DNA from: Natronomonas salsuginis
GTDB taxonomy: Archaea > Halobacteriota > Halobacteria > Halobacteriales > Haloarculaceae
DNA: 64,000 nt
NCBI RefSeq assembly: GCF_005239135.1
Contig: NZ_QKNX01000001.1
Coordinates: forward strand, 496,001 to 560,000
Reading direction: 5' to 3'
Shown: positions 18,828-44,241 of the stretch, one piece after another
Layout of the letters: each line of letters starts with the position of its first letter
Position numbering within the stretch: the stretch's first letter is position 1
The notes under the pieces: generated by a model
What the model was told of the DNA's origin: nothing
The model's input: the letters and a program-made list of their open reading frames with translations, nothing else
Database searches by the model: none
Made by a program: the position numbers and the translations under genes

Positions 18828-18949
18828 CGCTGGCGAATCGGTCAGCGGAGTCAAAATCGTTGTGCAGTCGTGTGCCGCGAGAGCGAACACGCCACGTGAC
18901 GACCGACGCGCTTATCACAGTGGAACCGATACCTTGTGAGGGTTTGCAC

Positions 18950-19984
18950 ATGTCATACGAAACGGGGCTCTCCTACGACGACGTGCTGGCGGTTCCACAG
19001 CGCTCGCCCGTCGGGAGCCGCGACGACGTCGATCTGACGACCGAACTGGCGAACGACCTCGAACTTTCGGTTCCCGTCGTGACCGCCGCGATGGACACCG
19101 TCACCGAGGCCGAGATGGCGCGCGTAATCGGTGAATCCGGCGGTTTGGGCGTCATCCACCGGTTCCTCCCGATCGACGAACAGGCGCGGATGGTCAGGGA
19201 GGTCGTCGAAGACGACGTTCCGGCGACCGGCGCGATCGGGATCGCCGAGGACCACCTCGACCGCGCGGCGGCGCTCGTCGACGCCGGGGCCGCGCTGCTC
19301 GTCCTCGACGTCGCTCACGGACACATGGAGCGCACGATCGAGGCGACGGCCGAACTGGCGGCCGCGTTCCCCGACACGTCGATCTGTGCCGGCAACGTGG
19401 CCACCGAAGCGGGCGTGAAGGATCTGGCCGACGCCGGGGCCGACTGCGTGAAGGTCGGCGTCGGCCCCGGGTCGCACTGTACGACCAGGGAGGTCACCGG
19501 GTTCGGCGTCCCGCAGTTCACCGCGGTCGAGCGGTGTGCCGCCGCGGCCCGGGAGTGCGGCGTCACGATGATCGCCGACGGCGGGATCCGGACCTCCGGG
19601 GACGCCGTGAAGGCGCTCCTCGTCGGCGCGGACGCGGTGATGATGGGTGGCTACTTCGCCGGCTGCGCGGAGTCGCCCGGAGAGATCATCGAGAACGATG
19701 GCCAGCGGTACAAGCGCTCGCGGGGGATGTCGACCGCCGCCGCCGCCGAGGACCGCGAGGATAAAGACAGCACGGTCGAAGCCTCCGAAGGCGTCGAGGC
19801 CGTCACCGAGTACGTCGGTCCCGCCGGTCCCCGACTCAGGGAGTTCGCGGCGGGGATCAGGTCCGGGCTCTCCTACGGCGGTGCCCGAGACCTCGAGACC
19901 GCCAGAGGGAACGCCGAGTTCATGAAAGTGCGTGAAACCACGGCGGGTCGAAACGGGGCGCACGGCTTCGCCCGGACGAGATAA
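18950..19984 (+). CDS. IMP dehydrogenase / GMP reductase family protein without CBS domains
   Basis: This encodes 344 residues from the ATG at 18950 ([20 protein letters not shown]). It is a TIM-barrel enzyme with the catalytic cysteine in [17 protein letters not shown] (about residue 177), [10 protein letters not shown] and [13 protein letters not shown] for phosphate binding, and a flap with [10 protein letters not shown]. The tandem CBS domains of full IMPDH are absent, as in GMP reductase and in short haloarchaeal proteins, so the sequence does not say whether it makes XMP or reduces GMP. The C-terminal 20 residues (after GNAEFMKV) end right before an IS605-type hairpin and may be altered. 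Confidence 0.85.
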
Positions 19985-19990
19985 CCACGT

Positions 19991-20032
19991 CGGATTCCTC
20001 CCACGGCTAAAGCCGTGGGCTTCCTCCTTGCA
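19991..20032. mobile_element. Solo IS200/IS605-type terminal hairpin
   Basis: CCCACGGC (20000-20007) and GCCGTGGG (20012-20019) form a perfect eight-base stem around a TAAA loop, flanked by TTCCTC and CTTCCTCC. This exact style of palindrome is familiar next to tnpB/IS1341-type elements in haloarchaea, where it forms the end recognised by the transposase or part of the guide RNA scaffold. No tnpA or tnpB is nearby, so it is a solo end or a miniature remnant. It starts six bases after the IMPDH-like stop and could also act as a terminator. Confidence 0.55.
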
Positions 20033-20058
20033 CCTTTGTGACCGACCGGGGAGAGCGA

Positions 20059-20670
20059 TCAGTTCTCCGCGACGGCGTCCTCGGTCCGGTCTCGAAACGC
20101 TTCGCCGGGGCGCTGTTCGCCGGCACCCTGACCGAACAGCCGATCGCGGAGGGATCGCTTTGAGAGACGCTCGGCGAGGAGCACGGAGCAATCGGCCTAC
20201 TTGACGACGTCGAAGTGCAGCGAGTCGTACACCAACCGCGAGAGCAGTCCCTGCTCGGTCACGCCGAGCAACAGCATCCTACAATCCGACGTACGCCGTT
20301 TTATCGCCCGGTCGATGTTCCCGGAATCGCCGACAGTTATTGTCGGGTCGTCCAGTTCGTAATCGGTGGCCTACTCTGTGAGGAACCGCTCGCCCGCCAG
20401 GCGATCGGTCGTTGCCTCGACGACGTGGAGGAGTTCGACCTCGGGGGTCGCGTCGTCGAACACGCCGCCGTACCCCAGCGCAAGCGCACCGAGACCGTCC
20501 CCAACGAAGTTGCCCGCCAGCACGATCAGCCAGTGGCGGAGCAGGGTCGGGATCGGCGCCAGCCGCTGTAAGGTCAGCGCGACCGGCGGGAGCGCGTTCT
20601 CGGTGTACAGCTGATAGCCGCCGATGATGGTGCAGACGAACCCGAGCGGGTACAGGAGCGCGCCGGCCGA
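20059..20670 (-). pseudogene. Composite pseudogene: formate/nitrite transporter fragment joined to universal stress domain
   Basis: One minus-strand frame runs from about 20670 to the TGA at 20059 and is broken only by TAG at 20371-20373 and TAG at 20197-20199. The first part (LLYPLGFVCTIIGGYQLY, TENALPPVAL, HWLIVLAGNFVGDGLGAL) aligns well with the intact formate/nitrite transporter at 42704-43672. It stops after GGVFDD, where the intact protein continues for about 150 residues. It then passes straight into a Usp-like domain (EVELLHVVEATTDR, MLLLGVTEQGLLSRLV, ADCSVLLAERLSKRSLRDRL). The transporter start is also missing, cut at the aroA stop. I read this as a deletion-fused, inactive remnant. 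Confidence 0.8.
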
Positions 20671-20677
20671 GTCGGGG

Positions 20678-21991
20678 CTACGCCTCGGTACACTCGACGC
20701 CGAGCGCCGCGAACACGTCGAAGAAGTTCGGGAACGACACGTCCACGTCCTCGGCACCCTCGATCGTCGTTTCGCCGTCGGCGACGAGCGCCGCGACCGC
20801 GAGCGACATGATGATCCGGTGGTCCTCGTGACCGCGAACCGTGGCACCCGTCAGACCGCCGCCGTGAACGACGAGTTCGTCCTCGTACTCCTCCGTCTCG
20901 ACACCCATCCGTTCGAGTTCGGTCGCCATGGCGGCCACCCGATCCGTCTCCTTCAGTCGAACGTGCGCGCAATCGGTGATCCGCGTGGTCCCCTCGGCTG
21001 CAGCGCCGAGCGCGGCGATCGTCGGCAAGAGATCTGGCGTGTCGGCGACCTCGACCTCGATGCCTTCGAGGGACGATCGACCGACCGCGATCGCTCCGGC
21101 CGTCCGATCCCACTCGATAGCCGCGCCCATCGATTCGAGGATCGAGACGATCTTCGAATCACCCTGTGCGCTCGGATACGCGCCCTCGACGGTGAGTTCG
21201 TCGTCGCCCGCGATCGCCCCCGCGGCGAGCAGGTACGACATCGACGAGAAGTCGCCCGGCACGTCGTAGCTGCCGCCGTCGGGCGCGTAGGATTGTCCGC
21301 CCTCGATCTCGAAGCCGTCCGCACCCGAGGCGCGGATCTCCGAGTCGTCGCCGCCGACGACCGTCGCTTCGACGCCGAACGCGTCGAGCACGTCGAGCGT
21401 GATGTCGACGTACGGCGCGGATTTGAGCTCCGTCGTCAGATCGATAGCGACCCCGTCCTCGGTGACAGCGCCGGCCATCAGCAAGCCGGTGATGTACTGC
21501 GAGGAGACGTCGCCCCGGATGGACACGTCGCCGCCCGAGGTGCCGCCCCCAACGACGAGCGGTGCCTGTCCGTTCTCACGGGTCGAATCCGCCCGGACGC
21601 AGAGTTGATCCAGCGCGTCGAGGAGCGGCCCCTGCGGGCGCGACCGTAGCGACCCGTCGCCGGTCAGAACGGTGAGCCCGTCGACGAGCCCGCCGGTCGC
21701 GGTCGTGAGCCGCATCGTGGTGCCGCTGTTGGCACAATCGATGATGTCCGCCGGCGTTTCAGGAGCGCCGTCGAAGCCGGTTATCTCCCAGTCGCCGTCG
21801 CGGCGTTCGGCCGACCCACCGTACGCCTCGACCGCGCGAGCGGTGGCCTTCGTGTCGGCGCTGAAAAGCGGATTAGTGACGAGCGCGCCATCGGCGTAGC
21901 CGGCCGCGAGGACGGCCCGATGCGTGTAGCTCTTCGATGGCGGGGCGCGTGCGGTGCCGCGAACGCGCGAGGGTGAGATCCGAAGGTCCAT
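20678..21991 (-). CDS. aroA: 3-phosphoshikimate 1-carboxyvinyltransferase (EPSP synthase)
   Basis: This encodes 437 residues from the ATG at 21991 ([20 protein letters not shown]); the earlier in-frame ATG would add residues that do not fit the family. It transfers enolpyruvyl from PEP to shikimate-3-phosphate. Family features are [20 protein letters not shown], the [18 protein letters not shown] region, the [18 protein letters not shown] helix and [14 protein letters not shown]. With aroC it covers the last two steps to chorismate. It is divergent from the M24 peptidase gene (78 bases between starts), and its stop abuts the pseudogene. Confidence 0.95.
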
Positions 21992-22069
21992 ACTCGCCGC
22001 GTTGCGTGCGGCCGGCAAATGCCTGCCGACTCGGGCAAGCGCTTTGTGTTCGCCGGGCGGGGTACCCGT

Positions 22070-42703: not shown

Positions 42704-43672
42704 TCACTCGTCCTCGTCGTCGCGCCGCCGCGGTTTGTCGACCGGCACGTACGTCCGGCCGACGCTACCGCCGCCGAGCCACTCCCGCACGGAGAGTTGC
42801 CGTTCGATGCCGTCCTCGCGAGCCGATTCGAGGCGGCGTTCGGTGGTCTGGAAGTAGTTGACGATGGTCACGAGCAGGACGCCGCCGATGGTGTTCCCGA
42901 GGAAGACGGGGAGTACGAACCCGAAGAGGCCGGGGGCGAGCGCCGCCTCACCGACATAAAAGAGATACATGAGCTCGGTGAAGGAGACGACGACGTGAAA
43001 GAGATCCCCGAGCGGTATCATGAGGAACGCGATGTACACTAAGAAAAACCGCGAGATCGTATCGCGGGCGGCGAAATCGAGCCAGACGACGCCGGCGACG
43101 ATCAGCCCGGCGAAGCAGGCCTTAAAGAAGAGGTCTATCGGCGCAGTTTCGATCCCTTTCTGTGAGAGTCCGATCGCCGCGGTGGCGGCCTCGGGTGAGA
43201 AGACGCCGGTGTACGCGAGGACGAGCGCGCCGATCGCGCCGCCGGCGAAGTTCCCGATCGCGACGATAACCCACGTTCGCATCAGCGCCGGAAAGCTCGC
43301 CAGCCGCTCCAACACGAGCGCGACCGGCGGGAGCGTGTTCTCCGTGTAGAGCTGATAGCCGCCGAGGATGATGTATATGAACCCAATCGGATACAGCAGC
43401 GAGGCGATAACTGGACTGTCCGTCTTGGCGTTCATCGAGGAGTAGATCAAGAAGGTGAGCGTGATCGCGAACCCTCCCGCGAGCGCGCTGAAAAACAGTT
43501 CGCGCGTCCCGGTGTCTATCTCCTCGTCGGCCGCCGCGATGATCCGTTGAAACACCTCGTCGGTGTCGAAACGGTCGCGGACGACTTCGCCGACCGCCGG
43601 CGCACCGCTTCTGGATCGTTCGACCGCATCGCGGACGGATTCTTCCCCCGAAGAAACCTGTTCGTCGTCCAT
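42704..43672 (-). CDS. Formate/nitrite transporter (FNT) family protein
   Basis: This encodes 322 residues from the ATG at 43672 (MDDEQVSSGEESVRDAVERS). It has six or more membrane helices with the FNT layout: LLYPIGFIYIILGGYQLYTE (helix 2), RTWVIVAIGNFAGGAIGALVL (helix 3 with the channel constriction), and later LGNTIGGVLLVTIVNYFQ. FNT proteins form pentameric channels for formate, nitrite or other small monovalent anions. The gene is divergent from a universal stress gene, with near-identical TATA boxes. A decayed paralogue fragment lies at 20371-20670. Confidence 0.88.
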   Translation of the reverse strand: MDDEQVSSGEESVRDAVERSRSGAPAVGEVVRDRFDTDEVFQRIIAAADEEIDTGTRELFFSALAGGFAITLTFLIYSSMNAKTDSPVIASLLYPIGFIYIILGGYQLYTENTLPPVALVLERLASFPALMRTWVIVAIGNFAGGAIGALVLAYTGVFSPEAATAAIGLSQKGIETAPIDLFFKACFAGLIVAGVVWLDFAARDTISRFFLVYIAFLMIPLGDLFHVVVSFTELMYLFYVGEAALAPGLFGFVLPVFLGNTIGGVLLVTIVNYFQTTERRLESAREDGIERQLSVREWLGGGSVGRTYVPVDKPRRRDDEDE

Positions 43673-43699
43673 TGAGGTACTCTCCACTACACCGGCATG

Positions 43700-43747
43700 C
43701 CAGAAAATACCTCCTATCGGAGCCGCGGGACCGCGCGGTATTTTAGC
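43700..43747. promoter_or_regulatory. Divergent promoter of FNT and Usp genes
   Basis: GAGGTATTTTCTGG on the minus strand (43700-43713, about 35 bases before the FNT ATG) and CGGTATTTTAGCC on the plus strand (43735-43747, about 27 bases before the Usp ATG) are the same box in opposite orientation. The region is nearly palindromic, which suggests linked control of both genes. Confidence 0.5.
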
Positions 43748-43767
43748 CAGGAGTGTGTGCGTTTCGT

Positions 43768-44241
43768 ATGGCTCTGGAGACACTCGTCGTAGCGGTCGGA
43801 CCGAACGACAACACCCGGACTGACGAGTTGGCGGAAGCGGTCCTCGACGTGGCAGTTCCGGCCGACGCGAGCGTTGTCCTCCTCCACGCGTTCAGCGAAC
43901 GGGCGTACGATGAGGGGATCGAAGAGGCTGGGTTCGACCCGGAAGAATCGCCGTCACCCGACGAACTCGCCAAGCGACTCGAGGGGATCGACCTGCTCTC
44001 GGAAGCGCTCAGCGCCGCGGACATCAGCTACGACGTTCGAGGGGAGATCGGCGCGGAGGGAGAGACGATCCTGCAGACGACCAAGGCGGTCGACGGAGAT
44101 CTGTTGTTTATAAGCGGTCGAAAGCGGTCGCCGACCGGAAAGGCGGTGTTCGGGAGCACCTCCCACCGGATCATGATGAACTCGTCGTGCCCGGTGTTGT
44201 TCGTTCGAGAGGGTGTCTACGGAGACGGGGACGAGGAGTAA
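43768..44241 (+). CDS. Universal stress protein (UspA family)
   Basis: This encodes 157 residues from the ATG at 43768 (MALETLVVAVGPNDNTRTDE). The Usp fold is evident in the first strand, the long acidic insertion, and FISGRKRSPTGKAVFGSTSHRIMMNSSCPVLFV. That last region matches the G-2x-G-9x-G(S/T) nucleotide-binding pattern. ATP binding is likely. It is divergent from the FNT gene; in haloarchaea Usp domains often accompany or are fused to transporters, so it may tune FNT activity (inference). Confidence 0.9.
   Translation: MALETLVVAVGPNDNTRTDELAEAVLDVAVPADASVVLLHAFSERAYDEGIEEAGFDPEESPSPDELAKRLEGIDLLSEALSAADISYDVRGEIGAEGETILQTTKAVDGDLLFISGRKRSPTGKAVFGSTSHRIMMNSSCPVLFVREGVYGDGDEE

Follow-up and report, generated by a model that had tools for sequence, protein, structure and literature searches.

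An almost certainly dead remnant of an FNT-Usp-Usp fusion gene between aroA and a guaB-like gene in Natronomonas salsuginis

The stretch of Natronomonas salsuginis DNA analysed here (64,000 nucleotides, hereafter the window) carries at 20059–20679, on the minus strand and in one frame, a fragment of an FNT channel, a junction and a partial Usp domain. We consider this region almost certainly a dead gene, the decayed remains of a haloarchaeal FNT-Usp-Usp fusion. On one side it is directly abutted by the stop codon of an intact aroA (EPSP synthase; 20678–22018, minus strand; PF00275, E 9.8e-102). On the other side lies a 53-bp hairpin repeat element (19989–20041, minus strand), followed by the stop of an intact, convergent guaB-like gene of the IMPDH/GMP reductase family (18860–19984, plus strand; PF00478, E 4.5e-104). 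Translation of 20059–20670 on the minus strand gives exactly two internal TAG codons and a final TGA, and no frameshift was seen in the frame.

The FNT part (20445–20679, minus strand) is the middle of a formate/nitrite transporter domain whose N-terminal part and C-terminal half are gone. It matches PF01226 over profile positions 57–143 of 240 (E 1.4e-15; 57.8 bits against a Pfam cut-off of 34.6), and the core that it keeps is up to 83% identical to intact fusions. The Usp part (20059–20440, minus strand) is what is left of a second Usp domain with its C-terminal tail and TGA end, as judged by its identity of about 42–61% to the second Usp domain (Usp2) of intact fusions. In Pfam it gives a weak PF00582 match below the cut-off (E 0.082), and it is nevertheless assigned to Usp because the intact relatives confirm it. 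Alignment with the intact fusions places an approximate, in-frame deletion junction at 20436–20450 (minus strand), where about 336 residues are gone (range 330–343, measured against 121 intact fusions), namely the rest of FNT, the whole of the first Usp domain (Usp1) and the start of Usp2. A preliminary description of this DNA had put the loss at about 150 residues, which is too low and corresponds to the FNT share only. It was right that FNT and Usp share one frame, but the Usp domain that it took for nearly whole lacks its N-terminal part and is the second of two. The region thus keeps the order of the fusion, FNT then Usp in one frame and on one strand, and lacks both the full-length FNT with two Usp domains and an uninterrupted reading frame. 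With its domains incomplete, it is a remnant rather than a working member of the FNT-Usp-Usp fusions.

Intact counterparts are widespread. When 60 relatives were searched, FNT and Usp matches turned up near each other in many genomes. Of 127 loci retrieved on the strength of an FNT or Usp match, a set that some genomes entered twice via two routes, 121 hold an intact fusion in one open frame. A locus counts as ‘intact’ here if one open frame includes FNT and runs for 430 residues or more between the point where the FNT match begins and the stop codon. The fusion is not in one closed open frame at the six other loci (L040, L123, L190, L200, L224 and L226), the last four of which have FNT and Usp on the same strand, 1–2 kb apart. 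The intact proteins, aligned through FNT, a first Usp part and a second Usp part, measure about 600 residues and consist of an FNT channel followed by two Usp domains at the C-terminal end; both intact fusions that were tested in Pfam gave FNT and Usp above the cut-off. A scan of named genomes likewise found FNT and Usp on one strand, 1–2 kb apart, at all 80 loci, these being the best 80 of 178 and not a random sample. Plasmid matches in haloarchaea are annotated ‘formate/nitrite transporter family protein’. The FNT-Usp order is therefore real, and the earlier claim of a composite FNT-Usp pseudogene with its stops in frame and no frameshift withstands the search for homologues of that order.

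Both stop codons lie at the places that the preliminary description had named, 20371 and 20197. The first TAG (20371–20373, minus strand) falls in a column that is Trp in all 121 intact homologues, and the second (20197–20199, minus strand) in one where 108 of them have Asp or Glu (Asp in 63, Glu in 45, other residues in 13). Of the 67 columns with at least 95% conservation, the remnant has lost 10, including the Trp of the first TAG, and in its FNT part it has lost 6 of the 44 conserved positions. Intact proteins have lost a median of 0 conserved positions per part and at most 4 (FNT) or 3 (Usp), with a slight bias in their favour, as these same proteins define the conserved columns. Third-position GC in the remnant is 0.92 and 0.79, compared with 0.78–0.89 in five intact genes of the window. 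Since this is still coding-like, the decay is probably fairly recent and not ancient, in keeping with what had been proposed from the sequence alone. The assembly details given in PMC7232251 for N. salsuginis F20-122 (13 contigs; the genome analysed here has 12) include a coverage of 531x, which makes sequencing error at both stops unlikely.

The gap between aroA and the guaB-like gene measures 693 bp in this genome, versus 16–251 bp in nine of the ten congeners in which it was measured. The underlying aroA search covered 20 genomes of the genus, this one included; 10 of the 19 others gave a measurable gap, eight had no guaB-like match within the locus, and in one (L108) the gap could not be measured. 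Neither aroA nor a guaB-like gene stands beside the fusion in the flanks of 23 loci (L037–L059) or in the named-genome loci (again the best 80 of 178). Given the short gap in congeners and the different neighbours of the fusion elsewhere, the gene probably arrived in or moved into the aroA–guaB gap in this lineage, and then died there. In the tenth measured congener (L101) the gap is 811 bp and seems, by eye, to hold a different open frame that is membrane-protein-like; judging by this case, insertions may have entered the gap on more than one occasion. Separately, six congeners (L092, L100, L104, L105, L106 and L107) have between the two genes a conserved palindrome-like stretch followed by GTGGTCCA, which may act as a terminator or encode a small RNA; this arrangement was not seen in the aroA–guaB gap of the window.

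The hairpin element beside the remnant has five near-identical copies in the genome (96–100%) with unrelated flanks, the further ones being at C1:495662, C2:296323, C4:10040 and C1:687732; other genomes in the genus contain partial copies. As an RNA it has a strong fold (z −3.7), and an Rfam search of the window found nothing. A TnpB-like open frame (PF07282 match at C1:494442–494642) lies just downstream of one copy, and there is no PF07282 match near the remaining four. It is conceivable, though we think it unlikely, that the hairpin element is the solo mobile end of a TnpB-type element and that movement of the hairpin element brought the fusion in or triggered the deletions.

No intact FNT-Usp fusion was found elsewhere in this genome. 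It does have, as had been pointed out, an intact FNT gene and an intact Usp gene back to back at 42704–44241. They are divergent, both pass their Pfam cut-offs, and they form a stand-alone FNT paralogue (42704–43783, minus strand; PF01226, E 3.6e-48) and a stand-alone Usp gene (43753–44241, plus strand; PF00582, E 1e-17). The pair lies near hmgA in Natronomonas, a layout shared by G007 and L061. Duplication of the genome's own FNT gene was considered as an origin of the remnant and rejected, as the remnant carries a fused Usp part and its FNT sequence is closer to fusions of other genera (up to 83%) than to the resident FNT (65%).

Within the genus, FNT and Usp matches lie side by side in only three of 19 congeners (G002, G003 and G019), several of the others being incomplete genomes. 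Among the matches listed in other genomes, from a search of 392 genomes of the order, each covered the FNT part or the Usp part and none both. In the FastTree tree, the remnant falls with fusions that come mostly from Haloferacaceae (0.963 for the grouping). A quick IQ-TREE run with a mixture model also gave Haloferacaceae as nearest by path, with no starred set holding the remnant, and an AU test did not reject grouping with three Natronomonas fusions (p-AU 0.557). At the DNA level, identity to the FNT part of the remnant reaches up to 84%, versus 73–79% in congeners. The FastTree grouping and the DNA identity suggest that the gene may have come horizontally from Haloferacaceae, or it may have descended vertically.

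Both internal stops being TAG in an otherwise open frame, the preliminary description had asked that read-through, for example as pyrrolysine, be excluded by a check for the pyl gene set, and had itself pointed to the missing FNT start as an argument against it. The best PylS (TIGR02367) score in the genome was 25.2 bits against a cut-off of 178.15, with no match above it (one of 14 control genomes exceeded the cut-off), and a tRNA scan of the window found none. TAG also ends the neighbouring aroA (20678–20680), 6 of the 41 coding-like ORFs of at least 150 aa in the window and 40 of the 121 intact fusion genes. It is thus an ordinary stop here, and the two internal TAGs are plain mutations without recoding. 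The remnant indeed lacks the FNT start, half of the FNT domain and Usp1, and has lost conserved residues. With no PylS above the cut-off, a truncated FNT, a Trp in all intact homologues at the first TAG and missense decay at conserved sites, pyrrolysine read-through is rejected, and the production of a short FNT-Usp protein through this or another suppressor is extremely improbable. A different survival of function, in which the truncated frame up to the first TAG (ORF 20371–20847, GTG start, 158 aa) still yields a small FNT fragment with some role, is just as hard to credit: about the first 55 codons of that ORF lie inside aroA in another frame, and the product would hold under half an FNT domain with its share of conserved positions lost.

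The remnant could also have arisen by chance, if two separate insertions had placed a piece of FNT beside the terminal part of an APC-Usp permease. A related Usp domain does occur within or at the end of two other genes in this genome, at 45% and 40% identity to the remnant, and one of these genes is by eye an APC-type permease with Usp. The Usp piece nevertheless resembles the Usp2 domains in FNT fusions (up to 61% identity) more closely than it does either gene, and the remnant shares order, strand and frame with 121 intact fusions, which makes such a coincidence very improbable. Some tension with a dead gene comes from the absence of a frameshift and from a deletion that is in frame, both of which could also result from selection acting on a gene that had become shorter. 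We still prefer decay of a once intact FNT-Usp-Usp fusion.

Under this preferred reading, a full-length fusion would have ended up in the aroA–guaB gap of the N. salsuginis lineage. Its 5′ part would then have been lost up to the aroA stop, about 1 kb would have been deleted internally with the frame retained by chance, and the remainder would have acquired two nonsense mutations, along with several missense changes where the sequence is conserved. Arrival presumably preceded decay, an order that we infer, as no sister genome was found to carry an intact fusion at this site. Loss of the fusion may have been tolerated because the stand-alone FNT and divergent Usp genes remain. One Natronomonas lineage would thus have dropped a fused transporter that is widespread and kept FNT and Usp as separate genes, and the case warns against taking a pair of amber codons in an old frame as evidence of recoding.

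Several known arrangements resemble the remnant to different degrees. The pair near hmgA places the same two families side by side, but as intact separate genes, its FNT being 65% identical to the remnant over 68 residues. APC-family amino acid permeases with C-terminal Usp domains, which PMC3102087 describes, are likewise transporters fused to Usp (the Usp domains in this genome being 40–45% identical to that of the remnant), and differ in the transporter family. The closest likeness is to the haloarchaeal FNT transporters that Anderson et al. (2011, PMC3102087) report as fused or adjacent to UspA domains, with Hmuk_1674, HQ1451A, NP6264A, Hlac_2299 and Htur_2705 as examples; the authors propose that these proteins transport formate and that the Usp part acts in regulation or the stress response. 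The remnant shares its FNT-then-Usp order with the fused ones among them and comes from the same group of organisms. Unlike those fusions, it is truncated at its 5′ end, has lost an internal block of about 336 residues and contains two nonsense codons. Since haloarchaeal FNT-UspA fusions have been in print since 2011, the remnant is best described as a decayed copy of a known fusion.
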